Source of the DNA: Dysidea avara
Lineage: Eukaryota > Porifera > Demospongiae > Dictyoceratida > Dysideidae
DNA length: 64,000 bases
Direction of reading: 5' to 3'
NCBI RefSeq assembly: GCF_963678975.1
Contig: NC_089273.1
Coordinates: forward strand, 34,713,630-34,777,629
The notes under the pieces were generated by a model. That model made no database searches. It was given only the letters and a program-made list of their open reading frames with translations, and was not told the origin of the DNA. Both the position numbers and the translations under genes were made by a program. Below are positions 20,441 to 64,000 of this stretch, piece by piece. Numbering within the stretch: the first letter of the stretch is position 1; each line of letters starts with the position of its first letter.

Positions 20441-21260
20441 GTAATCGAATTCTATAATGGAGTAAATAAATTAGCTGAATGCTCTATTAGGGTGACTGTT
20501 CTATTAGAATATCTCGATCGCGCATTTGCTACACGGAGTTGATTTTCGGACCATAACTCAGTGGTTTGTAATCCGATTCTTCTGTACTACTGCAATGACT
20601 TTCTATGAAGATTATTCAAGCTATACAGTGATTTTCAGCTCATTGCTCTAAGCGGTTTGCCTAGTAGGCGTAAAAATTAATACTTTTTTATTCATAAAAA
20701 TTGATGGCGTAATTTTGACACAGGTTGGGTTTTGTGTCATATCTCCATGGTCTTTATCTCGATTCCTTTCAAACCACCGAAAAGGCACTCCTACGATGGT
20801 TACTCCATCTACATAGAAATTTTCAACTCATTCCATGAAGCGGTTTACCCTGTAGGCGTGACAACAAATCAATCTTGTTTTACATGAATAATCGGTCATA
20901 AATCCTGAAACATTCATTGGAGTTGCACCACATTTGATACTAGGATTTGCCTTTGGACTCCCTTTTTGTGTGCCAAATTTCAAGGCGATCAGAGTACGCA
21001 TTTGCATTTTGTAGCAATTTTTGCAAGTGTGCAAAAACACAAAGAAGAAAAATAACGAAAAAAAATTTTAAACTTTGGCAGCTCATATCTCAGAAATGGC
21101 TAGAGTGATTTCCTTCAAATTTGGAATGTAGACTCCCCTAGCTAGCGGGCAACTCTGTAGCAAATTTGGTTCCAATCAGATAAGGGATCACCGAGATACA
21201 AAGGTATGAAAATGACATTTTCTTTCTTCCTGTTAATATGTCCACGGTGTGGCGCGCTGG
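20441..21260. repeat. downstream unit shared by both minisatellite arrays
   Basis: Begins with the CTGTTCTATTAG motif (20496), then AATATCTCGATCGCGCATTT. A TAACTCAGTGGTTTGTAATC block follows. The sequence after array 2 (63862-64000) is homologous. Further on lies low-complexity-free sequence ending near GTGTGGCGCGCTGGCTTCTT. No coding function seen. Confidence 0.6.
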
Positions 21261-21500
21261 CTTCTTGGCTTGCACAACACACTATTGTGTGTCTTGATTA
21301 TTATTGCAGCTTTACAGTGGCCAGCACTGAAGGTCTACCAGCAACACGTTCTACAGTCTTTGTAATCTAACAAATAATAAACTAGAGACTTAAACATTAC
21401 TTAATGGTTGAATGCTACACTAGACAATGCTATCACCACAAAACACTGTGTTGAAGTAATAGAGAGTAAACTAGAGGAACATAAAGTGATTATGTATGAT

Positions 21501-21545
21501 AGTAGTAGTAGCAGTAGCAGTAGCAGTAGCAGTAGTAGTAGCAGT
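21501..21545. repeat. AGT/AGC trinucleotide microsatellite
   Basis: About 15 units mixing AGT and AGC. Confidence 0.95.
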
Positions 21546-22009
21546 GTAGTGTGTGTATTTGTGTATGTACAGTATACTGTCTGATGAGCCTAAGGTGTGA
21601 ATTTATTTGCCCACACTCCATCAATCTGCCTACGGGTTACTAGTACCAAGAGTTCATAATGTTAAGAGTGGGTATTATGAACTCTTGCTAGTACTGCACT
21701 AGCAGGATTGTCCACACTATGGTAGTCTAGTATTCTACTGGGTAAACATAGCCATTTACATGACGTCAAATGCTTTTGTTTTTCGTGTGTTTTGACTGTA
21801 GTGTAGTGTAAAGTGTGTAGTTACCATATCTGTTTGTTTTGTTTTGTTCTTTTGTTAAACCAGGTGCATGTGTGGACGCACTCCTGGTTTACTGAAATTG
21901 TTTTCGTAAAAACTTGTGTGTGTATGTGTGTGTACCTACTGTACCAACCTATGTTTGTTTGTTTGCACACAGCCATGTGAGCAAAATTGTTATTATTATT
22001 TAATTACTA

Positions 22010-23070
22010 GGACTGTGTCACATACAACCAAGTACATATACCAACGTGACAGCCCAGCCCCCTGGTGAGGCTATTAGGTGGCGAAGGCACAATCCCCAAA
22101 TCATCTCAATATGTCACAGTAGTGACAGATATAACACAATAGTGGCATCGTAACTAAAGGCCACCAGTAGCTAAGTGCCAGTACATCACTTTTGTGGTAA
22201 TGGCACAGTGATGTGTACACCGTATATGTATACAAAACATACAGGAGAGAACTATACATTATTGCAGTATTGTGTGCAGCAATACATTATAGGCAACATC
22301 ACCAGATAAAAATTATTAGCCAATATACAGCACAGTATCAACATCAACTAGAGCTAAATAAGGTTCATCAGTGGTGTAGCAATGGCACAGTGATGGGTGA
22401 CACACTATAATTATGCATACACAACTTGTAGAAGATAACTACACAATGCTGTAGGATTATGCAAGCCAGATGAACCAGATAAAGGAAGACAGCCAAGCCA
22501 GCCAGAGCCTAGTAGGCTAATTTGCCAGGTGAAAGAAAAAGATTAAGCACGTATTGAATTGCCTGACACCAACACAAAGGAAGTTCACCATGCCAGCTGC
22601 ACAAGACAAGATTGTTTACTTGTATTTTATATGCAACTGTATTGTAAAGAGCATGGCATATGTTTTAATGTTTTCTTTTATTGTTAATTTACATGAATGA
22701 ATCCACTGGCAACTGGCATGGAGACTGAAAAAGGTTACAAACATAAAAACTTACTTATAATCTTCTTGTTTACGTGTAAAGTGGCCTCTGGCTCTCCTCC
22801 ATGGACATTCGCTAATCTTCTCCTTTGTACAATCTGTAATTAAGCAAGGGTGTGGTACTGGGCATTATATAGAATTACATATATGGTCAAGTCTCAGCAG
22901 GAACAGGTGCAACTATTATATGTTTGTACCTCCGTTTGCAGGCGAATCTATCCCCAGTTAGTTCTTGTCTCTAGGCCTCGTAGTTTTGAAGAACATTAAT
23001 TATTAATTAATTATTTATTTATGACATAATTTTAACCGCATTTCTTATTATTCTTAGTACTTGTTTGTAT
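22010..23070. repeat. direct repeat B, copy A
   Basis: About 1.06 kb. Starts near CTAGGACTGTGTCACATA and ends near CTTGTTTGTATAATTATTA. Highly similar to 29005-30540 in the same orientation. No protein product. The termini lack the TG/CA and primer-site features of LTRs. Confidence 0.8.
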
Positions 23071-23239
23071 AATTATTAACACTTCACAATACACTAAATG
23101 TATCGATGGTCAACCAACAACCTGTGTTGGCAGCCAGAATAAGTTAGTTAAATCCAATACTTAATTACTAAATTACAAAACTGAAATACTGAGATAAATT
23201 GCTAAATAAATCTATGTTATAACAATTGCTACATCTGCA

Positions 23240-25990
23240 ATAAAAAATGATATGTACAGGGATGGGAAAAATGGAGTACGTATGAAGTGTTGGTGTAGAT
23301 ACTTGTAGATGTTGTCTTTTATGACTGATAATGACTAGCTCAGATTGATGGACGGTAATTTATTCTACAGTCTTGATATTCTATTGAAATAGAAGTTCCT
23401 AGTGTAATTGTTGGAAGTATAGACATGATTAGTTCATTATTAGAGGAAGATCTGGTGTTTACAGTGCTAAAAAATACATGGTCATATACATATTAAAATG
23501 GTTGGATGGCTGCTTTAAAACTTTAATGAAAAACATGATGTCATAGAAATCCAGTGTATGCATTAAAGGTAATAGATCTAGTTTGAGCAGATGAGTCCGA
23601 TAGTCAGTGTCATAGTCTTTAAGAATGAATTTTAGTTGCTTGTCGGATGATAGTGTCCTTGGTCAAGTATGGATTCCACAGCTGAGAACAGTAAGTTAAC
23701 TGGAAGAGTTATATATAGAATTTTTTTAGCTTTGACAGGGTGACAGCTACTAAAAGCATGCCTTAGCAGGCCGAAGTATTTATAAGCCTTGGAAGTTATA
23801 TGTTTGTAATGACAGGTTGTCAGAAATTTGTATACTCAAGTCACGATAACTGTGCAGCTGTGGAAGTGTATTGCCATCAACTGAGTTGGAGGTTGGTGAT
23901 TTGTTATCAAAACTCAAGTGGATACACTTGTTGATGCCTAAATGTAAGTCAGAGTCAATGCTCCAGACATATAGCTGATTTAGATCTTGTTGTAAATCAG
24001 GATGATCAGGGGGGTAAAGGATTATTTTACAAAGCTTGGTATCGTCGGCAAACAGAAAGAGATCAGAGAATTGTGTTACTAGTGATAGAACATTTGTGTA
24101 CATTAAAACAGCTGGGGATTGAGGATGATGCTGCCTCGGGGCACACCAGACGACACTGGCAATGGATCAGAGGTAGCACTGCAGACTTTAACACAGTGAG
24201 AGTGATTATGTAGATAGTTGTAAAACCAATTTCAAAGATTTCCAGTTATTCCATAATTTGTTGGTTTAACTAAGAGCTTGTTGTGGGATACTATCAAAAG
24301 CCTTTCAAAAATCAAGAAAGATAGAATCAGTTTGGTGACCTTGAGAGGTAGCTTTGTAAATACTGTTTAAGTATGCCAAAAGTTGTTAGGTAGTGGACCT
24401 ACCAGGTGGGAATCCAAAGTGGCATGTAGTGATGTTATTAAGTACATGAGCAATGATTTTGTTGTAGATAAGAGTTTCTAAACCTTTTGATGTGTTACAT
24501 ACGTAGAAGGGAAATAGGTCTGTAACTCTTTACAGATGATCGATCAGCTGATTACAGGTATACACTGGTACAACTAGATGAAGTTTCCATTCCTGAAGGA
24601 TAACACCACATGCCAAACTTAAGTTGAACAAGTGGTAAAATGGATGGCTGAGTGAGGAAGCACGATATTTAAGAATTTTGGGACTAATAGAGTCAATTCC
24701 TATGACTTTATTAGGATCAAGTAGGCTGATTAAGTATACTTCTTCACTAAAGACCAGTGAGTTCATTTCATTAGGGTGTGAGGTTACATTTGCGCGATGT
24801 GGAGTTGTAGAAGGTAAAAACTGAATAGAAATATTAATTGAAGAGATATGCTCTATAAATGTTGTTGTTGGCTGAAATGGCATCAAGATGGATGGTGGGT
24901 GAGATTGTGGCTGACTTTGTAAAGCTTCTTATGTAACGGTATATTGAAGAATTAGCATAGTTGGTGATGAGTGTAGTTTCATAGTCAGACTTATAGCTGC
25001 AGCCGCACTTTGTTGGAACATGTCTTCAGCATGATTTAATCAGCTTACATCGTGTTCAGAAGGTGAACACTTGTTCTTTCTTCTCAGGGTGTGCAAACAC
25101 TTCGGTAGATGTTCTAGATCTCTGTTAAACCACTTGGGGTATTGTTTATAGCAGATTTGTATTTTAGGAATAAGTAACATTATGGCTTTGTAAATAATAG
25201 ACTTATTCATATACCATGTAACTTCAACATCAGATAAGAACAGATGGTTTACAAAAATGGAGTTGGATATGTAGGCATTCATTCCAAGAAAATCAGCTTT
25301 AAAGAAACCGTAAACATATTGAGAAATACTTTCTGTTGGCTGAGGTCTGACTAGTGATAACTCAAATGTGATAGCATAGTGATCGGATTTGATAGGTAGG
25401 TTATCAGTAGGGCTTACCGAAATACTGTCTATTAGGTTGTCATTGTTAGTAAGGATGAGGTCCAAAGTGTTGCCATGAATATGAGTTGAGTAGGATATTA
25501 ACTGTGATAAATTATGTTCAAAACATGTGTTCAAACCTGCAATGACGTTGCCACAGAGAGTATCCCAGTCAATGTCGGGCAAGTTGTAGTCACCTAATAG
25601 CACAATGTTATATGATTGTTGAAACTGGTAGGGGTGACTTGATAGATTGGATCAGTGGTACAGTAGGATTAGGAGGTATATACACAATACATAGGATTAG
25701 TGCTTGTGAGAGTTCTACTTCAGTGGTGGAGTAGTGGAGGATTTTGCTGACAGTATTATCCCGTACTGCAAGAAGAACCCCACCACCTCTTGAGCCACGA
25801 TAATTACGATGTATAGTATAGTGTGTAGGTAAAATTTTGTTCTCATTATATTGTTGGATAGCCAAGTCTCAGTTACTGCTGTAATGTCAAAATCACAGGA
25901 ATAAATCATAGTATGAAACAAGGATAATTTGTTAACAATACTTCTTATGTTCATATAATAACAGTTAAGTAGTTATAGATTTGCTGCAGG
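23240..25990 (-). pseudogene. LINE ORF2 remnant: endonuclease and reverse transcriptase
   Basis: Read from right to left. An apurinic-type endonuclease starts with NIRSIVNKL and TETWLSNN (about 25950-25860), then RGSRGGGVLLAVRD, GDYNLPDIDWDTLC (25600), HGNTLDLILTNN and SDHYAIT. The reverse transcriptase follows with NKVIGIDSISPKILK (about 24710), SSGVPRGSI (about 24150) and FADDTKL (about 24040), the catalytic aspartates being in FADD. A C-terminal tail in several frames ends near 23245. The order and motifs fit the CR1/L2 group of non-LTR elements, which nick DNA and reverse-transcribe their RNA at the nick. Frames shift repeatedly, so the copy is dead. Confidence 0.88.
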
Positions 25991-26049
25991 TGCTGCAGAA
26001 GAAGATGGCTGATAGGTAGATGTCATTATAAGGAGGGGAGGATCATAAT

Positions 26050-26949
26050 CAGAACGACACAATTCAGAATTTTGGTACTGTCCATAAAGTTTGATCAATG
26101 AAAATGCTTTTTTTTTGGTCAAAGCCTAATTGCATCAATATCCATCTCTCTTTAAGTAGTGCAGATTCAGCTTTCCTTTCTTCGGGTGTCATCAGGTTTG
26201 ATTCGCACTGAAGCTTGGAATGACACAGTGGCTTCTGTGGATCAAAGGAACTTGATGAGAATTAGTGTGGGATGGGAGGCATCAAATTTGTATTTACCCA
26301 ATCAGAAGCAATCTTTGGCTGAATTGGCCTGGATGGGAAGCTCAACTTTGGCAAATTCATTGGTTATTGATTGTAAGTCATTTTCCAGATGATCGGATTT
26401 GGATTTTTTCGGTGGGCTTTCTTTAATACCATACATCACAACGATGTACTTCTTGTCCTTGTAAATAGTAACTAAGAATGTAGGTTTATTGGTAGGGACG
26501 ATGTTGGCAAGTTTAGGTTGAATATTTATAGAGGTTGATCCATCAGGTATCGACACAGTCTCAGTAGTAGGCTCCAATGACTTGACTGAGGTCTGGAGAG
26601 CTGTGATATCACAGTTTCGGTGAGTGAAGGAATTGTGACTTTCAGATCTGAGATGGTTGTGGCATGTTGCTTTAGTTGACAATGTGGACAGTAAAAGGAT
26701 CAAACGGACCTTGTAAACTAGTATACACAGATTTGGGAAGACCTGCTGCATAACCTCTATGCAACCCAGAGGTGCTCTGGCCTTCACAGAAAATAGCATC
26801 ATTACCCTTCTTAGTCTTACTGGAGTCTTGTATAGCTTCTAAACAAATCAGACAAGTACACCCCCTTTCTTCTTAGTTTTCTTTGGCCGAGACAAGTTTT
26901 GTGGTGAATCACCCAGTGTATTATGCTTTAAGCTGGAGGTGGTGTCCAT
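26050..26949 (-). pseudogene. LINE ORF1 remnant with a PHD-like finger
   Basis: ATG at 26949 opens MDTTSSLKHNTLGD, then a basic RPKKTKKKGG stretch. After frameshifts come CLEAIQ, AIFCEG, a GLH stretch and PFYCPHC. This cysteine/histidine spacing resembles the PHD-finger found in some CR1/L2 ORF1 proteins. Downstream at about 26400-26300 is MYGIKESPPKKSKSDH and ANSAKDCF, the usual ORF1 C-terminal region, then IKPD. ORF1 proteins bind the element's RNA. Multiple stops and shifts show decay. It lies just upstream of ORF2, as expected for one element of about 3.7 kb. Confidence 0.75.
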
Positions 26950-29004
<2,055 letters not shown>

Positions 29005-31799: not shown

Positions 31800-32290
<491 letters not shown>

Positions 32291-32450: not shown

Positions 32451-32830
32451 TAGGCACCGGCCAATTATGCCAGCATAATTTAAAGCATAGTAGGTGACCA
32501 AAAGCATCAAGCATAATGCCAGCATAATAGGGACGATGTTTGAAAAATTAATTAAATGCGTAATACGCGTGCCTGAAAGAAAGCAAACATTTACTGCCAA
32601 TAGTATTATTAGTGCATTTCATATTTAAAAACATGTAATATAACTTATTAAACCGTTTCTTTGTTGGTTATTTACACTTTGCTGAAATAAGATCGAGATA
32701 CTCTAATAGAGCAGTCAGGAAAGGCTGATATACTCTAATAAAACAGCCAGTTCTAGAGCATAATCTTGATTTTGAAAGCATAATTTTGAGCATAATAGGT
32801 AAAAAATTTGGCATAATTGGCCGGTGCCTA
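32451..32830. mobile_element. hAT-like MITE, family M, copy 1
   Basis: 380 bp. The ends are exact inverse copies, TAGGCACCGGCCAATTATGC, and are flanked by an identical 8-bp duplication ATTGTGAA (32443-32450 and 32831-32838). The interior has several GCATAAT phrases and a reverse-oriented CTGTTCTATTAG-type motif at 32691-32714. Eight-bp duplications are typical of hAT transposons. No transposase encoded. Confidence 0.9.
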
Positions 32831-35525: not shown

Positions 35526-36141
35526 TAGAGTTGCACCGATATGCATTTTTTCACATTTGCCGATACCGATTATTTGCCTATTCCTGTAACCGATACGCCG
35601 ATATTTACCGATATTCTTCATTTCTTCAGAACAGAGGAGGAGGAGCAGAAAATCATCTAAAGTTTATGCGTATAAACTGCATTTGTAATGATAATGTAAT
35701 CAATGTAATTAATTACGTGGGCGGCCGACTTTTACAATGTTTTACACAGTTTTGCTACTATCTCCTTTCATGGAAAAGGAAGCCAAGTAGTTATAAAACA
35801 GCTAATCAAACAGTGTTTTAGTGGGACTACAGACCCTTTGTGAAGAGTGATCAACTAATTGCGTGGGCGGCCGATAAATATACACAGCCTACTATAGCCT
35901 TGCAACCACATTTGTGCAAACAAACAAACTCAAATAGTTACAAAACAGTTACAACAAACCACTTACTGCTACATTCACCACCTTCTTTACTTTCACCTGT
36001 TCATTGTCGTCAACTTAACGATTGATTGTGGGTTTCGGTTAACCGGCAAGTTATTTCCGCTTCGTAGCCGATACCGATACTTGTAAAATTAGCTAATATC
36101 GGTTGTTACCGATAATTCAACTGATTATCGGTGCAACTCTA
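35526..36141. mobile_element. hAT-like MITE with TAGAGTTGCACCGATA termini
   Basis: 616 bp. The ends TAGAGTTGCACCGATA and TATCGGTGCAACTCTA are inverted, flanked by the identical 8-bp duplication ATATTAAC (35518-35525 and 36142-36149). Subterminal GCCGATACCGAT phrases occur on both sides. It encodes no transposase; the ORFs inside (35531-35821, 35840-36025) have no domain I recognise. Confidence 0.92.
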
Positions 36142-37316: not shown

Positions 37317-37617
37317 CAGGGTCGGTGGAGCAGGCCAAAGAGTGAGGGGGCCAGGCCAGCTGTAGGTTGAAGACCAAAAAAAAACAAACAAAAAGGTCAC
37401 AGCCTGTTGACAATAGCTGCTTTTCACCAATTACATCTCCTTATTTATAACTACACATACGTAGCTAAGGAATTTGCTACACTGCTTCTCTGAATACTGT
37501 GACTGCTCTATTAGAGTATCCAGATCCTGACTGTTCTATTAGAGTATCTCGATCTTTTCTTGCAAACAGTGTCCCAAAAAGTGGGGGGGCCATGGCCCCC
37601 CGTCTCCACCGCCTATG
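37317..37617. mobile_element. hAT-like MITE with CAGGGTCGGTGGAG terminus
   Basis: 301 bp. Left end CAGGGTCGGTGGAGCAGGCC; the right end is the inverse of CATAGGCGGTGGAGACGG. Flanked by identical 8-bp GTGGAATT (37309-37316 and 37618-37625). Contains two CTGYTCTATTAGAGTATC motifs in tandem at 37503 and 37531. Confidence 0.85.
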
Positions 37618-44313: not shown

Positions 44314-45045
44314 GTATATGTAGGCAACCCCTACTTTTTTCTGTGATCCCTAATTGAACTTAAAATTCCTATTTTGGTATTAGGCTTGTTGTCTTTTTTG
44401 TAACATTATTATGAATGGTGAACCTGGGCATACTGCATCAAAAGAAAGAATAGTGCCAGAGTTATATACATAATGTTTTTGTCTGAACACGTTGTCCAAC
44501 TATCAACTACTGACTCAAAAGTGAAGTGGCCATTATGCTTTGCTTTTAGCTATGTTCAGCCCATTACACAGTGTTACAAACAAAGCTCTCTGCAGCATTG
44601 GTTTGGGTAGGTTCAGACAACCAAGCACATGATGCACCCTCTCACAATTGCAAAACAATAGGTGCATGTTAAAATGATAATGTTGAAAGTGGAAAATTTT
44701 GAAATTTGAATGATATGAGATTGACTCAGAGGATATTCTGTGGAAATTATGTATCTGAATTAAGCATTGCCATGCATAATAACTACACAAGTAGATGAAT
44801 CAAGCCTTTTAAATAGACCAATGCACTTCATTGTATGTAATAGGTGCAGACAGATATGGATAAATTCCATAGCAGAACCAACTATAATGTATATATCTGC
44901 TGAATGTTCTATTAGAGTAGTTAGGTAACTGCTATTAGAGCATCTCAATCTTGTACACCTCAAATGCTGATCCGGGTACTTGTTGCTGATCCGGATCCTT
45001 AGTCCTCAAATGCTGATCTGGGTCCTTGTTGCTGATCCGGGTTGT
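44314..45045. repeat. fragment of the WDTKED family plus tandem CTGATCCGGGT units
   Basis: 44320-44600 matches the 3' half of the WDTKED repeat in inverted orientation (GTGATCCCTAATTGAACTTA, AAGTGAAGTGGCCATTATGC). At 44965-45045 four GCTGATCCGGGTCCTTGTT-like units occur in tandem. Confidence 0.55.
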
Positions 45046-45328: not shown

Positions 45329-46412
45329 TAGGGACCAGTCTATTTTGCTTTTTTTTCACCTATTTTTCTTTCCAGCAATTCTTTTATTTTTCACCTATTA
45401 TGCTCCATATTTTGTTCAAGAATTATAAATTTTGCTCAGCACTGATCTTTGTTAATTGAATATTTCCAAGTGCAAAGCTACAGTTTTGCCTTAAAGTGAC
45501 TGTTCTATTAGACTATCTCGATCAACAATTACTTCTAACATGTAAAGCAAGAAGCTAGCTAATATTGCTTAACATAATTATGTGACCGGATTTCACATAA
45601 CAAGGCTTCCACACACACAAAATCAAACTTACGATTTTACCAGAAATGGATTGCTGGTCTAATGCACTATCATATTTCACACTGTACTTCCTTCAGCACT
45701 GACAAATCATATTTCACACTGTACTTCCTTCAGCACTGACAAGTCTGGTTTCTGTAGCAGCTTTCTTCCGACCCTGTCAAAGCCACGAGTGTGAGATTGG
45801 CACCATTAAATGGCCATGGCTTTGTGATAATGGTGTGTACTGAGCTGGGACTTCACGGAGAGCTCGCCAATAGTGTTCTCAGTCAATTTGGAGTAATTTG
45901 AGGGCCATGGAGGGCCATGGAGAGCCCAAACTTGGCCTCTGGATTCCAATCGTCTTCTTACTTCATTTTATACTCGTATATTAAGACCACCGTCCAACAG
46001 GGCAAATTTTGGGTGTCAGAAATGTATACACCCACTCAGTGATAGCTAGTGAATAGATGAACAATTGGTGCAAATTTTGCTTGCACAGCTGTAGGCACTG
46101 GGAAGTTATTACACAATGATTCCTTAAAATCGCCATATCTCCTAACAAAGCTTTGTGCGTCGAATCCTTGATTTGTCAAATTCAGTCACTGTTTTATTAG
46201 GGTATCTCGATTGTCACTTGTTGTTCCTGTAACAATTAGCTATGCATTTTCGATGTTTTAGCGCGTCTGACTGTTCTATTAGAGTATCTCGATCTTTTGT
46301 GAAATTTTTATGTCCACTTCACAAAAATTACACCTATTATGCCATCATTTTGCTCATTGCTTTTACCCACCCGTTATGCCAAAATTTTGCCGGCAAAATC
46401 GACGGTGCCCTA
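45329..46412. mobile_element. hAT-like MITE, family M, copy 2 (1084 bp)
   Basis: Starts TAGGGACCAGTCTATTTTGC and ends with the inverse of TAGGGCACCGTCGATTTTGC. Flanked by identical 8-bp CCTCAGAC (45321-45328 and 46413-46420). Contains three direct motifs at 45500, 46189 and 46271, and CACCTATTATGC phrases shared with the other family M members. Coding capacity absent. Confidence 0.9.
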
Positions 46413-47444: not shown

Positions 47445-47901
47445 TAGGGACCCGCCGATTATGCGCATTATTTTACCTATTATGCTATGCAGCACCGCTC
47501 AAAAATTTACCTATTAAGCTTAAATTAATGCTCAATATTTACCTATTATGCTCAAATTATGCTCAATATTTTTACCTCAGTTCCCATGTTTTTCTAATAA
47601 CTTTGCATTTTATGGAAAAGCAGTAAGTGGTTGAAGCACAGACTGTAAATCCTTGCTTGTCAAAATACATGTCACAGAAAAGATCGATATACTCTAATAG
47701 AACAGTCAGCTACCTGATAATTTTATTAGAGTTACTGACTGTTCTATTAGAGTATATTGATCTTTTTGTTGGTTATGTATTTTGATAAGCAAGGATTTAT
47801 AGCATTGCACAAGTTTTCTGCCTATTATGCTAGCATTATGCTCAATGCTTTCAGGCACCTATTATGCTTATTATTATGCCAGCATAATCAGCGGGTCCCT
47901 A
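47445..47901. mobile_element. hAT-like MITE, family M, copy 3
   Basis: 457 bp. TAGGGACCCGCCGATTATGC at the left is matched by the inverse of TAGGGACCCGCTGATTATGC at the right. Flanked by identical 8-bp GCTGTAGT (47437-47444 and 47902-47909). The motif occurs twice, inverted at 47682-47705 and direct at 47739-47762, so the two copies face each other. GCTCAATATTTACC phrases are repeated near the left end. Confidence 0.92.
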
Positions 47902-49263: not shown

Positions 49264-52200
49264 TTAGAGACCAATAAGGTTACTGTACCTCATTGCATCA
49301 TCATCATCATCATCACTGCTATCATTAATAGCAAAATATTGATGCCTCTTGTAATGGAGTACCTTCTTGATAACAGCAGCAACACATAACACAATTAGTG
49401 GAAATATCACCAACACTAGTGCTAACTCAGTAGTGGCAAACTGTAGGAAGTCAAAACTACTAATAATGACTGCTATTAACATCAACTGTAGGAGTAGCCC
49501 ATCAAATATATTTAAGAATTTATTTTTGTATGGTTGAAGCCACAAGTGAACTGTAGCAATTACAACACAAGTCAGTAGTAGGTAAAACAACATGCTTTCA
49601 TAGATATTATGACCAAGGAGCACAATAAACATGATTACTTGCCGACAAATCAGATAATATGAAGCAAACCAACTATATTTGACCTTGTAGCAACCTTGAA
49701 ATTGATCTAGTATTGGCTTCAATCTGATAAAGTTAATCTTTCTTTTAAGAAATGGCTCCAGCAACAAAAGCAATGGCAGACCAATTCCTATCACCAGCTC
49801 ACAGATGATTGCGACACTACCATACACCACATGTCTACCTTGAAAATACTTGATGTTAGGAGATGAGTATGTATATAGATTATCTGCATCAGTAAATTTT
49901 AGAGGCCTCAGCAACTGTAGGGAAGTGGAGGCTAATGATGTATACGCTAACAACAGAAGAAGGCAAAAAACACGAATGATACATCGACTAATCAATTTAG
50001 ACACTTTTCTGGAGCATTTTGCAGCTACCACAAAACCATATAATAAAACTGAAACAGCACCAGCATGTGAGTAATGGATAAATAATTGATCAATTCCATT
50101 CATTTCTCTTGTCAAACAAAGATTCCCAAGAAATTGAGGATTTAATTGTGCAATTCCTGATAATATATTTATGAACTGAGCTGCACCACTAGATATGTAG
50201 GGATTATTACTCAGCAATATATTCACCATACTGTAGTAGTAGATTAATCCATATAAGTATCCTGAGGACAGTTTAAAGTCGGAGTACATCAATGTAAACA
50301 CACCAACTATCATAACAATCCAATAGAAACCTGTCAACACTACCACTAACACTGTCATAGCAGCACTACAGTGGTCTTCACTGATACAGTCATTAGAGTC
50401 ATATGCTAGAGTGAATCCTGGACTGCATTGTCCACAAGCAGGACCAGACCTGCCATGTTCACATTGATCATTTATCCTTTCAGGCAGTTTAAAGTAACCT
50501 TCTCTGGTCGTCTTATGATCAACAAACCCACAATACTCACTGGGGCACAATGATGTAGTTGCTCTTCCATTGACTCTACCAAACCAGTAACCTCTTTTTA
50601 TCTCATTATAGTCATCATAACACTCCACCACATCATGATAGTAACAAACACAACCTTTAGATGTTGTACTGTAAACATATCCAGGATGATCAGAACATGG
50701 GACAAACTCTATTACAAGTGTCACCTCTACTTGATGGTAATAAAAATTTAAGTTAGACAATAATTGTATTGTGACATTTGTATCGTTAGTCACTGTTTCT
50801 CCAATGAAAATTACATTAAGTGGTGATGCATTATCAATTACTAGTTCTGTGCTGATCAATGTCAAAATACCACAATCAACACATTGCAAATAAAATTTTG
50901 TAGTATCTGCAGGCTTTTCAAAGTAATCTAAAACAACGCCAAAAAATCTTACTACTCTACCTAGAATTTTGTTATCAATAAAATACACACCATTTGAAAA
51001 GGTAGTGCTACCACCAAACAATTTCAATTGTTTTGGAGAAGTGACCACTGGAAAATGTGTTATGTTTAACTGAGTGTAATTGTAGTCAATGGGAATATGA
51101 ACATAAGAACCATTGATGAATTGTATGTAGTTGAATTGATATGGCACATACATGAGCGATGAGGAGTTTCTATAATTTAAATTTAAGATGCAATAATTTG
51201 GTACACTGAAATATACAGAATTATCACCATATCCCAATTTAGAGTTTATAAACTGAACACTTGCATTACCAATATGGATATTTAAGACTTGATAATTTCC
51301 CTCACAACCTATGCTGAAGTCCACGTATATTGCACCACCATAATAGACAGCTGAATTGTCAATAAACTGTATCACTGCTCCATCACTAATACTAATGCTA
51401 CTGGTTTGATCGATGTATAAAGCTCCTCCCTTGTCAGCACTATTTTCTTTGAAAAATGTATTTCCAGAGAGTGTAATACGAGAGTTTGTAGAAATGAAGC
51501 ATGTACCAATATTGTTAGTGAAATTTGATGTAGCAATACTGATTTGTGCTGGAAAGTCTGCATTTACATTAACGTAAACAATACTATAGACAGCTTTGTT
51601 TAAATGAAACACACTAAACATAATAGAAATAACAAACCATCAATATAAATAGCTGCACCATGAACAGATGTATTGTTGAGGAATAAGCATTCTCTTAATG
51701 TTATCACACTTGGAGCAGGATTCTTAATATACACTGTACCTGCACTATTGTAGTGGCATACATTTGAGGTTACGTTAACTTTATTCATAGTTACATTAGT
51801 AATAATACAAGGTGACCGAATTGATATAATTGATGCTATTGGAGAATTGTATTTACCACTCAACAAGCTATTATTTGAAATAACGACATCATTAAAATAC
51901 AAAGAGCCCCGAAAGCAATAGTCTACAGAGTAACGAATAAAAGTTAAATCTATTATGGGAGAATGATAATTTGTATTGCTAGTAAACACTGTGTCTTTGA
52001 CTACAACTGCTATATCACCCCTTGTGTGGAATTTTGCACTTAGTACAGTACCAGTATTGCTACTGAAAACCGAAGATAAAATCATTAGATCCATATTTCC
52101 ATTTTCTGAATCAAGACCAATGTCAAACAATGTTCCACCTTCAACCAAGACATGGTTATTATAAGCAATAAGTTCATAAAGTGTTAATGATGATTCATAA

Positions 52201-52973
52201 AAGTTGGTTAAATCAATGTTTGCTACCTGTGCATTATTGAAGAATTGTGTTTTTGATATTGTAATATTCACGGATATTTGGAAAGATGAACATAGTATCA
52301 ACAAAGCATATCCATCAAAATCGTCATCATACTGGAGCTCTCCATAATATCCATTATCATAGAAATGACATTGATGAATCGTTACATTTGCAGTTGTATT
52401 ATCAAAGCAATCAAGAGTTAATCCACCAACATCTCCATATGGAAATTGTTTATTTCGTTTGTTAGATAAAAACTTACATTGATCAACTATTACATTTCCG
52501 CTTATACCAAATAAGTTAACTGCCATAATCCGAGAATGCTGAAACACACAATCTGCTATCATAATATTGCTGATATATCTAAATGATATAATTGGTAGGG
52601 TTTCCTTATGATCAGGGCCACTTTTGTCCCATGTGATCCCCTTTATTATGACACCACTGCACTGGTAACACTCCACACTTCCTCTATTGTTACACATGAT
52701 GGTAGCACCATTACCAACTATTGCAATGTTTGTAAGGTGACCTGACCCCATTGTGACTTTGCTGTGCAGTGTAACTGACTGTGATGTGATGTTGATTACA
52801 GTGTTACTGGTCATACTGTGTAAAGCAGTGGATAGTGAAGAACATGGACATTCTCCCTTCACACAACATTTAATACTATCACTACCAGTAGTGTTGATGG
52901 TAATCACTTTATTGTTGACATGTTGACTGGTGAGGATTATCAGATATATCAAACCATAGGTAATGATGTTCAT
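49264..52973 (-). CDS. secreted-type beta-helix, cysteine-rich, multi-pass membrane protein (two coding exons)
   Basis: Exon 1 is 52973-51638 and exon 2 is 51593-49264, joined over a 44-base GT-AG intron. Together they give 1221 residues from ATG at 52973 to TAA. Residues 1-20 (MNIITYGLIYLIILTS) look like a signal peptide. From about 25 to 640 short hydrophobic/Asn-rich turns recur (GNGATIMC, NNTSVHGAAIYID, ENSADKGGALYID), typical of a right-handed beta-helix with many N-glycosylation sites. A cysteine-rich stalk (about 745-855) holds GYWFGRV, CPSEYCG and GPACGQCSPGF. About nine membrane segments span 857-1190, including RPLKF and LQPYKNKFLNIFDG loops, and an acidic cytosolic tail has SSDDDDDD. 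The architecture suggests a cell-surface receptor or transporter-like protein of an expanded sponge family; ligand and activity are unknown. The membrane region somewhat recalls TRP-like proteins. It is the only convincing intact gene here. Confidence 0.87.
51594..51637 (-). other. 44-base intron
   Basis: Starts GTTTGT after GATG and ends AAAG before CTGTC. Removal keeps the beta-helix frame open (IYID then AVYSIV), while two other nearby AG sites would give immediate stops. The very short length and the weak pyrimidine tract are notable. Confidence 0.75.
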
Positions 52974-53334
52974 TCTACAGTGGGTAAACTAGATGTTTAC
53001 TATTAGTACAAATAATGTTACTATAGTGTACATATAGTATGAGTGCAAAAATGACTATCTAAATGAGTGCACTCTATTGTTCCTCTGGTCCTGATTGGTG
53101 TCTATTAATTGTGGAATATAGGAAAAAGCAATACATACAAATTAAGAGTGTTTTATCTAAATGTGCAAGGGATTTGGTATTAGGCGGTTGGCATCAGTAT
53201 TTGTTTTTGGTTAATTATTAATTTTGATGATGTTACCACTTCAGGGAGAAAGGATGAATACTAGTAATTCCTATGGATAGAATTCTAATCTACTTACACC
53301 CCTGGCTAGTATAGTTAAAAACTCTATACAATGG
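52974..53334. other. upstream region of the main gene
   Basis: AT-rich. A TATA-like ACTATATG lies roughly 60 bases upstream of the ATG on the - strand, which is weak promoter evidence. No repeat noticed until 53335. Confidence 0.3.
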
Positions 53335-56454: not shown

Positions 56455-56527
56455 ATGTCACTGTCGGATGAGCACAGTGGCAATACGAATGTGGAAGGAC
56501 TGAAAATGATTCAGCGCATCGTAGTGG
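56455..56527 (+). CDS. putative short first exon
   Basis: ATG at 56455 opens MSLSDEHSGNTNVEGLKMIQ, then RIVVG, and stops at a consensus donor GTGAGT (56528), phase 1. CpG content is locally raised. No downstream partner exon was identified before the repeats begin. Unknown product. Confidence 0.3.

Positions 56528-56917: not shown

Positions 56918-56920
<3 letters not shown>
56528..56920. other. no gene recognised
   Basis: AT-rich sequence with no repeat partner noticed. Confidence 0.3.

Positions 56921-56956
<36 letters not shown>
56921..56956. repeat. AT microsatellite
   Basis: Eighteen AT units, immediately left of a WDTKED-family copy. Confidence 0.95.
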
Positions 56957-56961
<5 letters not shown>

Positions 56962-57030
56962 GGGATTTTCTACTGCCTGCTTGCCTGCCTGCCTGATATC
57001 TTCAGGCAGGCGTAGCTCAGTAACAGCTAA

Positions 57031-57556
57031 TAGTGCGTTTACACTAGCAGTTGGGCATGGTACGGCACAGTACAGCACGGCACGGTATGCTTAATTTTGC
57101 TAGTGTAAACAGGTATCGATCCGAGCCAAACAGTTACGTGCCGGGCTCGGCTGGCCCTGCTACTTCAACCATGCTGGCTCGATATGGTACGGCACGGTAG
57201 ACAAATTGAAACAAACCTAGCTATATCCTTGGCTGCTGTATGTAAATACGATGGTTGGCCAAACGTGAAACAACATCCAGTTACCACGTTCGACTTGAAA
57301 TGAGCTGTCCACCGAGCGGTAGCCGCTGATATTGTCCCTCAAACGGATTGCTGATAACTTGTACGACATCAACAGCTTGAAACGAGCTTTAAAATGGCAA
57401 GGGCATCTCGTAGGACGATACTTTAGCCATCACATGCTTATGTATAAACTTTCCAAGCATAGTTATTTCCTTACCAATCTAAATGAGCACTTAAAACGTA
57501 GCGTACCGTACCATGCTGTACCGTACCGAGCTGGAGCTACTAGTGTAAACGCACTA
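57031..57556. mobile_element. PIF/Harbinger-like MITE with TAA duplication
   Basis: 526 bp. Left TAGTGCGTTTACACTAGCAG, right end inverse with one change. Flanked by TAA (57028-57030, 57557-57559). The homologous site at about 33760 has a single copy of the target (AACAGCTAAGGCT). Inner sides hold GGTACGGCAC / GTACCGTACC phrases. The 3-bp TAA duplication suits PIF/Harbinger. No transposase. Confidence 0.82.
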
Positions 57557-58006
57557 TAAGGCTATGGGCTTGATATTTTCACTGTTTGAAGTTGCTTTGT
57601 CCTGAGACGTGCATACCACAGTACGTACAATGCATGCATCATGGACTTACCTTTGTCCTCCTTTGTGTCCCATTTCTTTTTGCTGACAGTTCAATGTGTC
57701 GATTCACGGTAACATGATGCATGGCTTTCCTACAGTACATTTATAAACGGGAATTATCCATATTTTCTGTGATAACTGGATTGATTGCAGAGGCAATTCT
57801 AGCACTGCTCTTCATTTGTAACGATGTGTAACGAGTTGGACATACGTGTAGCTGAAAGCGAAGCATAATGGCCACTACACCTTTGAGGCAGTAATTGATA
57901 GTTTATATTTTTGATAGCTGGGGGCACGCAAATTGTCATATTTTTGTGGTGAATGAATTGTTGTAGAGGCACTTCTTCTACTGTTTTTCATCTGTAGCAC
58001 TGTGTA

Positions 58007-58261
58007 CAGGGAATTTAAGACTTCTTGCAATTTCATGCGAAATGCGCAGTGTGGTTGCGCATGTATGTCTGTCGTATTTTGCTAATCTCAAAGTGAAATA
58101 ACCTATGCTACGACCCTGTTAAAGAAATTTGTCACATGTGCAACAGTATGAGGCACGATATGAGAATTCACCATCATTGTGGCACCAGATAAATTGCTTA
58201 TAAAAACATGGATGCATACGCATTCACACTTACAAAATTGCAAGAAGTGTTAAATTCCCTG
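58007..58261. mobile_element. Tc1/mariner-like MITE with TA duplication
   Basis: 255 bp. CAGGGAATTTAAGACTTCTT at the left and its near-inverse at the right, continuing GCAATTT on both sides, flanked by TA. The related tandem units without the insertion read CTGTGTAACGGG across the site. Confidence 0.85.
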
Positions 58262-58439
58262 TAACTGGCAGAACATAACTGAAACTAAAGCATAATGGCC
58301 ACTGTACTTTCGAAGCACAGTATTTGATAGATGGGGTGTGTGTTCAGACGAAAACATTAATTCTGGTGCCATCCTTTCTTTTGATGCGGTATGCATGGGT
58401 TCACCGGTCATAATAGTGTTACAAAAAAAAGGAAACAAA

Positions 58440-58652
58440 CAAGTTTAAGGAAAAATTTGGAATTTTAAGTTCGATTAGAGATCACAGAAAGAAAATACGG
58501 AAACAAGGGAGGTCGCCTGTACCTGCAGATATACTAGTGAACGTTTAATCCCTAATTCAGTCTACACTAGTATATCTGAACTCCCTTGTTTCTCTACTTT
58601 TTTTCAATGATCCTTAATCAAACTTAAAATTCCCAAGTTTCCCTTATACTTG
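58440..58652. repeat. 213-bp imperfect palindrome
   Basis: Arms share AAGTTTAAGGAAAAATTTGG-type, TTAGAGATCA and GGAAACAAGGGAG blocks in inverse, and the inner AGATATACTAGTG/CACTAGTATATCT pair. Equivalent in position to 34334-34628. Confidence 0.82.
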
Positions 58653-59279
58653 TAATAAAGTTTTACACATAGCTATAAAAACTATTAAACAGAGAAACTA
58701 TGTAGCCTTCACCAGGAATTTTGTGATTCCAACACCTACAGTATGAGACACAGGTAAGTTCCTTTGTTACACTACATATGTGCAGATATTCAATATTAGG
58801 TTATTATAAAACGAAACACTACAATGAAGAAGATTTTGACATGGTGTTATTCACTAAAAGAATATATGTACGTACATAGCTATCGAATTCTAAGTAAAAT
58901 TCGTTGCTTTTGCAATCAATAGAATTTGCCACCTCATTTCAGCTACTTTGCACAGTGTTCCTATTTAGCAAAGTGCTAACTAAATAGTGATCACAAATTT
59001 TCCTGCAAACTTGAAAAACTCTATTGTAATACAGTGCCTAATTCTATTGCAAGCATGCCAAATCCAATTGCCAAGGCAATGCTGTTTCAAAAACAACTAA
59101 TTCTATTGCAAAAATGGACAAAGATGATTGCAAAGCTGATGAGTTTAATGGAGAAAATTTGTAAGAATTCCAGTCTTTAAACATTGAAAATATGTAAGCC
59201 TTAATTGCAATTTGAAAATGTATAAACAGACTACATATATCCTCATTACACGTACTTACATACATTATCTACACTTGAA
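58653..59279. other. mostly unexplained; possible small MITE
   Basis: TTTTGCAATCAATAGAATTT near 58909 and AATTCTATTGCAAAAA near 59099 are roughly inverted and may bound a ~200-bp MITE. A strong donor-like GTAAGT lies at 58754. No gene established. Confidence 0.35.
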
Positions 59280-59500
59280 TGTGTACCTTAAACTAGAGGA
59301 CATCTCCATAATCTGGAAACTTAGTAATAGTCCAAAAGTATCTCTTAGCACACAACCGACCTGGACAAAATCAAGACACCTTGATAATCAGTAATTTAGG
59401 ATAGTACTGAGGTGTCCTTAATACACAGGTTTCACTGCACACAGTGGTTCAAGGTATATGATTATGACTGTCCAAAAATTTACATTATGCAGCAAACCCA
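59280..59500. repeat. dispersed repeat, partial copy
   Basis: GAGGACATCTCCATAATCTG through ATGATTATGACTGTCCAAAA matches 53335-53505. Confidence 0.65.
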
Positions 59501-59519
59501 CTAATAGCTGCTACTCTAC

Positions 59520-59955
59520 TTACACTCAAACCTCTCTAATCCGATGCTCAATGGGAGCTATAAATTTTGCTGGATTGAGGTTGTTGGATTATCAAGTCAC
59601 CTCTGTAATCCAACATTGTACAATATCTAGAAGTATGTCGATTATACAGCAAATTACAGTTAAAACAGATCACACGGTGTTTTTAACATGAATTAACTTG
59701 CAAGTATTACAGTTTTTTTTTTCTGTTACTATAAACCAATTAAATACTTCAGTTGCTTAATGCTGCTATTAATCTCTGTCGGATTACAAAAGTCAAAAAC
59801 AATGACAAGTTTAGGGAATCAGGATTGAGAGTACAGAGGTACCAGATTACAGAGGTATTTGTTCTATACAAGAGTGTTGTTAAATGCCATTATGGTCAGG
59901 ATTCCGGATTACACAGGTATCTGTTCAACTGTACTACTGTTGAGGGGTACGTATA
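59520..59955. repeat. AATCC-rich repeat with pogo-like ends
   Basis: The left CTCTCTAATCCGATGCTC and a right part with GGATTCCGGATTACACAGGT are roughly inverted; inner TCTGTAATCC phrases recur. Resembles the ATTATCC MITEs at 5844 and 16340. Weak. Confidence 0.35.
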
Positions 59956-61172
59956 ATGAACCAAAATCATTCACAAAATTTCAAATTTTAAAATATGGGT
60001 GCCCATATTTCATCTTTCAAAGAACATTTCACTTTGTAAAATCCCAGATTTTAAGTCTGTAAAATTTTGTAAATAAATTTACAAAATTTGTAATTTTAGA
60101 TGTCCATAAACTCCCATTACATCTGTTCGATTGTCAACTCAGTTCGAAAATCTTTCAAATGTACAGAATTTCAGGCAATATTTTACCGTTCAGAAATAAA
60201 TTCAGATGTGACCTACGAAATTTCAGGTCGTCACCTGCCCCTCAACTATTGTTTTACCATAGACATGCCCATACATGGGTTGGTTACGTCACATTTTAAT
60301 ACTACACAATTAACTCGACAAATAAACAGTCATGTCGACAGTGCAATGTAAATCTACAGGCTTCTTTGTATGTCTCACCAACTCTTCAAGGGTAGTGAAA
60401 TTCCTCGATGTGTTTTCAGTAAATAATCACCCTCTCACTGTTGGAGTCTATTGAACTTTCCTAGGACCTCGCCAACCCAGATTTCGTAGGATTTATCCTG
60501 GTACCTCCTACACTCGCTAATTCTGAAATCCGTCACAAGTGTGAGTAGGGGTGAGTGACAGTAGTATGCGAAGTGGGTGAGTAATGTCCGAGGTAATATC
60601 TGATTAATTATTTTATATAAGCGCTTAATTATAGACTCAACAAAACGATAGGACCAACCGACCCGAGATCCGACCAACTGATGTGCCATACTGCTACTGT
60701 GATTCTACCACCGAGAAGCAACTGAATTGATATCATCTCCTTAACGGTGAGCCACTGTTTTGGAGTAGAATCGAGTCGTTTATCAGTTGAGTTGTTGCAA
60801 TGATCAGGCGTATAAAGTCATCAGTTGGGTGTAAAATAGAGTTGTTTCTTGCGTTTCCTTTTAGATTTCCCTTTAGAAGTAGGTTTTTCTCACCTAGATG
60901 CACTAATTTTACTGTACGTGCCGAGGTACGTGCTCGATCTCACTCTTAAACAAAATTTTATGATTTGTTTCATGTACATACCTCATAATCGAGTGTTGTG
61001 TGCATGTGAAAAGATGTAAACTTAAAATTACTGTTGTCTATAAAGATGAAGTGCATGTCAAAATGTGTTTAAGTCAGGTGAATTAGTTGAACATTCCGCT
61101 TTTGTCGCTTTGTGTTGACATATCAAAACTCGTGTCAAATTAACCCATACATTACAATCTTCCGTAAAATAT
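59956..61172. other. no gene recognised
   Basis: Short phrases of AAATTTTGTAAA occur at 59970-60100. The ORF 60435-60689 on the - strand (SECRRYQDKSYEIWVGEVLG) looks somewhat protein-like, but it is not recognised and has no partner exon. Confidence 0.35.
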
Positions 61173-61174
61173 TA

Positions 61175-61491
61175 TCTAATCCAAAACAGCCAAGCTGTAA
61201 AAAAAGTGTGCGGCCCTCAGAAAGGCTATGGTGAAAAAAGATGTGAAATCCAAGGTGGCGGCCAAGAAATGGCTGTGATGGTAGGTTAATGGTAAAAATT
61301 TTAATAATGACAATTCAGGTAAATTTTGTGAAGCGGCACAAAAATTCACCTGAATTGTTATTAAATTTTTTACCATTAACCTACCATCACAGCCATTTCT
61401 TGGCCGCCACCTTGGATTTCACATCTTTTTTCACCATAGCCTTTCTGAGGGCCGCACACTTTTTTTACAGCTTGGCTGTTTTGGATTAGAT
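61175..61491. repeat. 317-bp near-perfect palindrome (foldback MITE)
   Basis: Arms of about 150 bp are nearly identical inverses. Each holds CCAAAACAGCCAAGCTGTAA, a GGCCCTCAGAAAGG block and AAATGGCTGTGATGG, and closes on an AATTCAGGTGAATTT-type core. The two overlapping 66-codon ORFs on opposite strands are mirror copies of each other, not genes. A decayed copy is at 15590-15875. Confidence 0.95.
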
Positions 61492-61642
61492 TTCATTTCT
61501 TTTTGTATTTGTATACCCCAAAGACGGCCTATGGCCAGCTTTGGGACTTTTTTAACCTATGTTTTTTTTCTTTACTACAGGAAGAAGTAGATGCACTTTA
61601 ATATTTTATCAGTAAATGTACAAATTATATATATAATACATA

Positions 61643-61744
61643 TGTGACCGGATTTGCGAAAAGGGGCCTTCCACACACATCCAATTTTCCAACTTTGACA
61701 ATTGATAACTTCAGATTGGAAAGAGCTATAATTGCCTTGAAATT
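61643..61744. mobile_element. left terminus of a TGTGACC-type element leading into array 2
   Basis: TGTGACCGGATTTGCGAAAA then GGGGCCTTCCACACACA. A close relative is at about 45585-45620 within the MITE 45329-46412. The right end lies beyond the window or was lost. Confidence 0.5.
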
Positions 61745-63850
61745 TGGGCAGTGGTGATTTCTTTGCAGCTAAACTCTTTACAAGGTAATTTCTTCTAGCT
61801 GATCTCTCTACAGGGAGATTTGTTTGTAGCTGAACTATCTACAAGGTAACTTCTTCTAGCTGATCTCTCTACAGGGTGATTTGCTTGTAGCTGAATTCTG
61901 TACCGGTGATTTGTTTGCAGCTGAGCTCTTTACAGAATGGTTTCGTAGCTAAACTCTCTAAAAGGTAACTTCTTCTAACTGATCTTTCTACAGGGCAATT
62001 CTTTGTGGCTGAATTTTCTACAGGGTGATTTCTTTGCAGCTGAACTCTCTACTTGGTGGTTTCTTTGTAGCTGAACTATGTACAAGGTAATTTCTTCTAG
62101 CTGACCTCTCTACAGGGTGATTTGTTTGTAGCTGAATTCTGTACAGGTGATTTGTTTGCAGCTGAGCTCTAAACAGAATAGTTTGTTTGTAGCTGAACTG
62201 TCTACAAGGTACCTTTTCTAGCTGATGTCTCTACAAGGTCACTAGTTTGTAGCTGAACTCTCTACATGGTGGTTTCTTTGTAGCCTAACTCTCTACAAGG
62301 TAACTTCTTCTAACTGATCTTTCTACAGGGCAATTTGTTCGTGGCTGCATTTTCTACAGGGTGATTTCTTTGCAGCTGAACTCTCTACATGGTGGTTTCT
62401 TTGTAGCTGAAATCTCTACAAGGTAACTTCTTCTAGCTGATCTCTCTACAGGGTGATTTGTTTGTGGCTGAACGATCTACAAGGTAACTTCTTCTAGCTG
62501 ATCTCTCTACAGGGTGATTTGTTTGTAGCTGAATTCTGTACAGGTGATTTGTTTGCAGCTGAGCTCTTTACAGAATGGTTTTGTAGCTGAACTCTCTAAA
62601 AGGTAACTTCTTCTAACTGATCTTTCTACAGGGAAATTTCTTTGTGGCTGAATTTTCTACAGGGTGATTTCTTTGCAGCTGAACTCTCTACTTGGTGGTT
62701 TCTTTGTAGCTGAACTATGTACAAGGTAATTTCTTCTAGCTGACCTCTCTACAGGGTGATTTATTTGTAGCTGAATTCTGTACAGGTGATTTGTTTGCAG
62801 CTGAGCTCTTTAAAGAATGGTTTCTTTGTAGCTGAACTCTCTACAAGGTAACTTTTCTAGCTGATGTCTCTACAAGGTCACTAATTTGTAGCTGAACTCT
62901 CAACATGGTGGTTTCTTTGTAACTGAACTTTCTACAAGGTGACTTCTTCTAGCTGATCTAACACAGGGTGATTTGTTTGTAGCTGAACTCTCTACAAGGT
63001 AACTTCTTCTAGCTGAACTCTCTACAAGGTAACTTCTTCTAGCTGATCTCTCTACAGGGAGATTTGTTTGTAGCTGAACTCTCTAAATGATGGTTTCTTT
63101 GGAGCTGAACTCTCTACAAATTAACTTCTTCTAACTGATCTCTCTACATGGTGATTTGTTTGTAACTTAATTCTGTATACAGTAGGTGATTTGTTTGCAG
63201 CTGAGAGCTTTAAATAATGGTTTCTTTGTAGCTGAACTCTCTCAAGGTAACTTCTTCTAGCTGATGTCTTTACAGGGTCACTAGTCTGTAGCTGAATTCT
63301 CTACATGGTGGTTTCTTTGTAACTAAACTCTCTACAAGGTAACTTTCTAGCTCATCTTTCTACAGGGTGATTTATTTGTAGCAGCTGAATTCTGTACAGG
63401 TGATTTGTTTGCAGCTGAGCTCTTTAAAGAATGGTTTCTTTGTAGCTGAACTCTCTACAAGGTGACCTCTTCTAACTGATCTTTCTACAGGGTGATTTGT
63501 TTGAAGCTGAACTCTCTACAAGGTAACTTCTTCTAGCTGATCTCTCTACAGGGAGATTTGTTTGTAGCTGAACTCTCTACATGATGGTTTCTTTGTAGCT
63601 GAACTCTCTGCAAGGTAACTTCTTCTATTGATCTCTCCACAGGGCGATTTGTTTGTAGCTGAACTCTCTACATGGTGGTTTCTTTGTAGCTGAACTGTAC
63701 AAGGTGATTTTTTCTAGTTGAACTATCTCTTTCCACAGTTGCATGAACTCCCTACAAGGTAGCTTCTTCTAGCTGATCTCTCTATAGGGTGACTTGTGTG
63801 TAGCTGATCTCTATACAGGTTTCTTATTTCTAGCTGATCTCTTGAATTTT
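61745..63850. repeat. minisatellite array 2 with higher-order repeat
   Basis: Units of about 30 bp near GGTGATTTGTTTGTAGCTGA plus ACTCTCTACAA alternate with GGTAACTTCTTCTAGCTGAT plus CTCTCTACAG. A longer block starting CTTTGTGGCTGAATTTTCTA recurs at 62001 and 62640, a period of 639 bp. GTACAGGTGATTTGTTTGCA recurs about six times. No coding frame is maintained. Confidence 0.95.
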
Positions 63851-64000
63851 CTTCAGGGTGACTGCTCTATTAGGATGACTGCTCTATTAGAGTATCTCGA
63901 TCTCGCACTTGCTGCACCAAGTTGGATTTCGTGTTATAACTCCGTGGCTTTAAGTCTGATTCTTCTACACCATTGATGAGCCTTTCTAAGATGATTACTC
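63851..64000. repeat. downstream unit shared with array 1
   Basis: Two CTGCTCTATTAG motifs (63862, 63879) then AGTATCTCGATCTCGCA and a TAACTCCGTGGCTTTAAGTC block, collinear with 20480-20640. Cut by the window edge. Confidence 0.7.

Follow-up and report, generated by a model that had tools for sequence, protein, structure and literature searches.

The window analysed here is a 64,000-nucleotide stretch of the genome of the sponge Dysidea avara (contig NC_089273.1, positions 34,713,630 to 34,777,629), and our subject is a word of 27 bp, TGACTGYTCTATTAGRGTATCTCGATC, that recurs on both strands of it within repeats of quite different kinds. Copies lie inside four hAT-type elements (E1 to E4), inside miniature inverted-repeat transposable elements (MITEs) of Tigger/pogo-like type, in a repeat family designated X, and at the downstream edges of two 31-bp minisatellite arrays (Table 1). 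A sequence-only reading of this DNA had pointed to the 20-mer CTGTTCTATTAGAGTATCTC, followed by GATC, as a short motif shared by otherwise unrelated repeats, and all ten of its strong sites were recovered in the window by a pattern match at up to 3 mismatches; the weaker sites that it gave at 5893, 15418, 16382 and about 44900 were recovered as well. The 20-mer matches the window at 14 places with at most 3 mismatches, where 0.03 would be expected, and none of 100 dinucleotide shuffles reached 14. Profiles of 7 and of 10 copies show high information running from a TGA that begins 3 bp before the 20-mer to the GATC in the 4 bases after it, and then dropping sharply, so that conservation stops at the edges of the 27-bp word on both sides. 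In a 27-column profile made from 15 of the window's own copies, 16 full copies score at least 25.9 bits and 3 partial copies 7.6-10.7 bits, the next best place scoring -1.1. When 24-mers were ranked by dispersal with both minisatellite arrays masked, the motif came first: it lies at 11 loci, and the next unrelated word at 6. Many of the copies form polar tandem pairs (20476+20493, 63859+63876, 16379+16410, 32723+32691 and 37503/37531). The sequence-only reading lists the last of these pairs and makes no mention of the pattern.

The word is very abundant beyond the window. In the host assembly (550,814,596 bp in 108 contigs) the degenerate 27-mer occurs 59,121 times at up to 3 mismatches, and the reversed pattern does not occur at all. 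The earlier claim of dispersal across unlike repeats holds, and was understated. With at most 2 mismatches allowed, the 20-mer gives 58,196 matches; read backwards, it gives 11. As an independent sample we used twenty 10-kb stretches placed by hand on five contigs (200 kb); these hold 29 copies at up to 3 mismatches, the best match in one shuffle of the same DNA having 8. The density of the sample scales to about 80,000 copies, and the genome count of 59,121 may thus be somewhat low; an exact copy in L022 is missing from the C1 list of places, which means that the lists are incomplete and, again, that the counts may be low. Exact-pattern scans, which can miss diverged copies, did not find the motif in bacterial and archaeal genomes. 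Among viral contigs such scans matched 3 and 8 contigs, and in the 3 the match sits in one common sequence that contains none of the flanks seen in the window; neither the minisatellite unit nor one element end was found by the viral exact-pattern scans, which diverged copies can escape, and a BLAST search of plasmids with 2,590 bases returned no match.

A single repeat family does not account for the motif. Neighbouring copies (up to 6 mismatches, within 150 bp of one another) were merged into 96 clusters, of which the twenty stretches gave 32, the window 11 and a set of 48 exact-match loci 53. Their 150-bp flanks, with the motif and half copies masked, were grouped by single linkage on alignments of at least 40 bp at E < 1e-6. 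At this threshold the 96 clusters fall into 34 flank groups, a figure that is too high because E1 (group 8) was split from its family M relatives (group 2) and Tigger/pogo-like copies stand in groups 2, 13 and 14; other singleton groups may be old members of larger families. In 23 of the groups at least one cluster comes from the window or from the unselected stretches. A smaller set of 56 clusters gave 29 groups, and comparison of flanks within the window alone gave six. The largest group, A, takes in 23 of the 96 clusters, and family M, to which three of the window's elements had been assigned, lies in groups 2 and 8, which hold 10 of the 96. Neither outcome that the sequence-only reading had named as fatal to it was seen: the flanks do not align among all copies, and the count is not that of family M alone.

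Several of the carriers are of hAT type. The sequence-only reading had placed the motif inside three family M elements and one different hAT element, and all four (E1 to E4) are bounded by exact 8-bp target-site duplications (TSDs; Table 1). E1, E2 and E3 have related ends and interiors that largely cannot be aligned, and they carry two, three and two full copies of the motif, respectively. Elsewhere in the genome, motif-bearing elements have the exact 8-bp TSDs CTGTATGA, TGCCAATA, GTGTACAA, CCCCATTG, TCAGTGAT, TAGAGGGG, GGGAGTAA, CTGCCAGT and ATTGCTCA, the first three of which belong to three copies with TAGGGCTGGGCGG ends that stand at separate sites, each with its own duplication. At least three clearly different hAT end types flank the motif, namely TAGG(G/C)ACC(C/G)GCCNATTATGC, TAGGGCTGGGCGGTATTGG, and CAGGG(G/T)CGGTGGAG with its variants; these end types and the TSDs come from two scans, one of which had no random control. 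The other, a looser TSD scan, was positive at 11 of 56 clusters (with one doubtful case and one element that was counted double) against 14 of 188 random positions, and at 4, 1 and 1 clusters with the wrong sizes 7, 9 and 10. Since random positions also score in the loose scan, single weak cases are not to be trusted, and the evidence for hAT is that of repeated families with different duplications. The terminal inverted repeats (TIRs) of E1 to E4 and their relatives start with (C/T)A, as is typical of hAT.

Other carriers are of different kinds. Those at 5893 and 16379 align with a copy at L038 whose ends, read by eye on that copy, are CAG...TTATCC flanked by TA; we call them Tigger/pogo-like because we take a TA duplication and CAG...TTATCC inverted ends to be the hallmarks of that group. 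The edges of the minisatellite arrays belong to a further element, A, which in the 8 copies compared continues for about 780 bp beyond the motif and finishes with a hairpin and then TTGAT. The motif does lie at the downstream edge of both arrays, as had been noticed before, with a half copy 17 bp upstream, and this could suggest that it is a degenerate unit of the adjacent 31-bp arrays. We give that idea almost no credence, for the classified hAT and Tigger/pogo-like carriers of the window have no such array; a minisatellite origin was rejected when the motif, aligned to the array consensus or to the arrays, scored no better than its own dinucleotide shuffles. An RNA gene or tRNA origin was likewise rejected, since the window has no tRNA and no Rfam match that reaches the gathering score. 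Within the E4 family the number of motif units varies: one unit is present in L028_3874 and two in the window (37500-37554) and in L014 (1470-1498), which indicates that units are gained or lost in tandem.

Within its carriers the word has a recurring internal layout. The module is built of a 19-bp core, TGACTGYTCTATTAGRGTA, present once or as two or three direct repeats, the last copy usually running into TATCTCGATC. In the sample a tandem partner is present in 20 of the 34 flank groups, and in 11 of the 34 the cores are spaced by exactly 21 bp with variable linkers, two of these 11 (groups 2 and 8) being related M-type groups. Other spacings are 17 in 5 groups, 32 in 4 and 27 in 2, the remaining values occurring in one group each. 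Exact pairs across the genome number 8,379 in tandem order (a three-unit array is counted more than once) and 1,062 in divergent order (every such pair being reported on both strands). The tail is polar: the 70 last or only copies match TCTCGATC at 5.9 of 8 positions and the 42 upstream copies at 2.6 of 8, in a comparison for which 8 loci had been picked for the exact 20-mer.

It is the fixed 19-bp core, the direct repeats at a preferred spacing of two helical turns, the polar tail and the identity across dissimilar carriers that lead us to a reading in terms of binding. We suggest, with about an even chance of being right, that the 27-bp word is a cis-acting protein-binding module that many non-autonomous transposons of different kinds may have kept. 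If a sequence-specific host protein, or some other trans-acting factor common to the carriers, binds the module, then elements that bear it could multiply better, for example by lying in chromatin that is open in the germ line, and transposition of the carriers would have spread the module to some 60,000 copies or more. A further proposal is that many unrelated families of transposons have been recruited by a single DNA-binding protein of this lineage, perhaps one that acts in chromatin architecture or in the germ line, in which case the copies would form a network of at least 60,000 sites with the word kept by selection across superfamilies; this we consider unlikely.

The divergence of the motif relative to its flanks was examined in element A. 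With the downstream flank of A alone as query, the motif itself excluded, 7 copies were found in the twenty stretches and the window, and all have the motif at 0 or 1 mismatch. Six of these, all diverged, could be aligned along the whole flank, and in them the motif has diverged by 3.5% against a flank median of 23.8% and a lowest flank value of 7.4%, the flank values being those of 761 overlapping 27-column segments (about 28 non-overlapping). In these copies the motif CpG is intact in 6 of 6, and flank CpG cells are intact in 145 of 251. The best-scored 40 of 936 genome-wide flank candidates yielded a larger set, of 39 copies in addition to that of the window. The motif stands at the same place in all 39, 38 of them within two substitutions and one with a small deletion, and none represents an empty site.

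Several observations weigh against the protein-binding reading. The six diverged copies form two subfamilies and the 27-column segments overlap, so that by our own reckoning the rank of the motif among its flanks is worth only about 1 in 29. In the young A copies the divergence of the motif, 1.9% (38 rows), falls within the flank range of 1.0 to 4.4% (37 rows, with a median of 2.9%), and the motif CpG, intact in 38 of 38, does little better than those of the flank, intact in 169 of 185; the young set neither supports nor refutes constraint on the motif. The common 21-bp spacing could reflect shared descent of the module rather than constraint. The motif is present in none of 12 hAT transposase 5' regions (some 1.25 kb on the 5' side only, ahead of open frames that are 606 to 691 aa long, with positions estimated from open-frame length and some frames possibly being host genes), where about 2 copies would be expected from the sampled density, and a hAT-type MITE of 616 bp within the window (35526-36141), with TAGAGTTGCACCGAT-type ends and the TSD ATATTAAC, has no copy. 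What the sequence-only reading had called a shared functional site thus stands in part: identity across families, the recurring layout and the low divergence in one old family speak for a function that the word may have, and the young subfamily, in which motif and flank do not contrast, does not.

The main rival holds that the module is inert, a functionless passenger that arose once and was swapped between MITE families by recombination, template switching or terminus capture. Exchange of this kind would agree with the M-group elements, where ends and motif are retained and much of the interior cannot be aligned, and with the gain or loss of tandem units among the relatives of E4. The spacing that recurs between groups is as compatible with descent as with function, and no constraint specific to the motif is seen in the young copies. 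It is harder to reconcile with the old A copies, whose motif is far less divergent than the flanks and has kept its CpG, with edges that are sharp and identical in dissimilar contexts, and with the presence of the motif in both hAT and Tigger/pogo-like carriers. We regard an inert passenger as a possible explanation, though a doubtful one.

The motif is not a hAT hallmark, as the non-hAT carriers and the motif-free hAT-type element of the window make plain. This bears on the proposal, made in the sequence-only reading, of a transposase-binding site, in the form of a subterminal or internal site that binds, or enhances the action of, hAT transposases cross-mobilising MITEs. Such transposases are abundant in the genome (150 scored matches among 1,875 candidates, many in open frames of 600 to 700 aa), and MITEs with at least three clearly different hAT end types carry the motif; in addition, an internal region of the coral CMITEs that is more conserved than their TIRs has been proposed as an aid to transposition (PMC2872659). 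The absence of the motif upstream of all 12 hAT frames, some of which could belong to host genes, speaks against a 5' subterminal site, and it led us to reject a promoter of the hAT transposases as well. The distance from motif to element end varies, and the hAT-type MITE with an 8-bp TSD and no motif is a further difficulty. The proposal is weakened because elements that are not hAT, both Tigger/pogo-like and minisatellite-bearing, carry the motif, and we consider it quite improbable.

If the block of 27 to 48 bp were instead a tiny self-mobile unit that inserts by itself into other repeats, as the same reading had also raised, then sharp and constant edges, the one positive support for the idea, and dispersal on both strands would be expected. 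By eye, however, neither inverted termini nor a target-site duplication is seen at the edges of the motif, and the 39 flank-recruited A copies, all with the motif at the same place, include no empty site. No mechanism for such mobility is known, and we think it very improbable.

Transposons are known to spread regulatory sites, usually through one family or two related ones, as with the CERP2 and CELE2 MITEs taken up below. The CENP-B box is an example of a short protein-binding word common to otherwise unrelated repeats, satellites and pogo-type transposons among them, although its sequence differs from that of the present motif. Several of the carriers described here are like hAT MITEs in their ends and their 8-bp duplications. 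The CMITEs of Acropora offer another comparison: they are described as having different TIRs around a common internal sequence that is more conserved than the ends and whose origin and function are unknown, with a length of about 100 bp, TTAA duplications, a shared interior of 75 bp, piggyBac-type ends throughout and about 1,600 copies in A. millepora (PMC2872659). On that description the likeness is an internal sequence common to MITE families with different ends, as judged here from flank groups and end types. The differences are that the D. avara carriers classified as hAT have 8-bp duplications and TAGG or CAG-type ends in place of TTAA duplications and piggyBac-type CC(C/T)T ends, and that the shared word is 27 bp long, is borne by hAT, Tigger/pogo-like and other elements of about 300 bp to several kb, and is present in 59,121 copies.

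A second comparison is with the CERP2 and CELE2 MITEs of Caenorhabditis, which carry pairs of the HIM-17 motifs m1 and m2, in divergent order in one family and tandem order in the other, and which serve as promoters in the germ line (PMC9757741). Short transposon-borne motifs paired in tandem or divergent order, in thousands of copies, are common to both systems (8,379 tandem and 1,062 divergent pairs here). CERP2 and CELE2, however, are two related MITEs whose two motifs differ, whose binding protein is known and whose promoter activity has been tested (PMC9757741), whereas in D. avara one motif, in tandem or divergent copies, stands in many flank groups and is known from sequence alone. The word is not described in the covered portions of a survey of sponge promoter motifs (PMC4773876), of studies on sponge chromatin (PMC5429095) and on small RNAs (PMC6211395), or of a study of chromatin loops dealing with transposon-associated architecture in placozoans and ctenophores (PMC12221973). 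Neither ATTAGAGTATCTC nor its complement was found as text in the papers searched, and figures, supplements or subscription papers may still hold it.

The case departs from these precedents in copy number, in the shortness of the shared word and in the breadth of its carriers: a single exact word is common, in large numbers and with a recurring layout, to many repeat families that include two DNA-transposon superfamilies. If a host protein reads the word, it could be tested directly in this genome whether transposons, in order to survive, converge on host factors, and the copies would make up a natural library of binding sites, tens of thousands of them, set in dissimilar contexts. If, on the other hand, the word is inert, then unrelated MITE families can exchange short modules on a large scale.

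Table 1. Motif copies and the elements that carry them in the 64,000-nucleotide window (TIR, terminal inverted repeat; TSD, target-site duplication)
Feature	Position	Strand	Evidence
Motif copy in Tigger/pogo-like MITE	5893..5919	+	profile, 33.9 bits
Motif copy, element not classified	15415..15441	+	profile, 33.7 bits
Motif copy, first of tandem pair (spacing 31) in Tigger/pogo-like MITE	16379..16405	+	profile, alignment
Motif copy, second of the same pair	16410..16436	+	profile
Minisatellite array 1, 31-bp unit	18688..20403	+	
Half copy 17 bp upstream of full copy, edge of array 1	20476..20492	+	profile
Full motif, downstream edge of array 1	20493..20519	+	profile
Element A, 3' part (minisatellite-bearing), ends in hairpin + TTGAT	20520..21298	+	
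hAT MITE E1, TIR TAGGCACCGGCCAATTATGC, TSD ATTGTGAA	32451..32830	.	
Full motif in E1	32691..32717	-	profile
Second motif in E1, spacing 32	32723..32749	-	profile
hAT MITE E4, ends CAGGGTCGGTGGAG / CATAGGCGGTGGAG, TSD GTGGAATT	37317..37617	.	
Motif copy in E4, first of pair (spacing 28)	37500..37526	+	profile
Full motif in E4, second of pair	37528..37554	+	profile
Degenerate tandem pair in repeat family X	44901..44950	+	profile, flank grouping
hAT-type element E2, TSD CCTCAGAC, three motif copies	45329..46412	.	
Full motif in E2	45497..45523	+	profile
Motif copy in E2	46186..46212	+	profile
Full motif in E2	46268..46294	+	profile
hAT MITE E3, TIR TAGGGACCCGCCGATTATGC, TSD GCTGTAGT	47445..47901	.	
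Full motif, left arm of divergent pair in E3	47682..47708	-	profile
Full motif, right arm of divergent pair in E3; degenerate core at 47715	47736..47762	+	profile
Minisatellite array 2, 31-bp unit	61753..63842	+	
Half copy 17 bp upstream of full copy, edge of array 2	63859..63875	+	profile
Full motif, downstream edge of array 2	63876..63902	+	profile

The profile scan finds no copy of the motif between positions 20519 and 32691 of the window, and this stretch contains the endonuclease domain of a non-LTR retrotransposon (Exo_endo_phos_2; 25040-25651, minus strand). A second shared word, TGTGACYGGATTT, has 9 matches in the window at up to 1 mismatch where 0.21 would be expected (961, 1996, 5523, 39412, 40047, 45581, 54884, 55505 and 61643), partly at element ends. 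Two long open frames of 791 and 462 aa occupy 49264-52988 on the minus strand, their sole Pfam match being a weak one to Chlam_PMP, under the cut-off. A foldback hairpin at 61167-61498 has 141-nt arms that are 97% complementary and relatives in 10 of the 20 sampled stretches, and a CTGC tetranucleotide array of 199 bp, with a 97% match, lies at 32017-32215.

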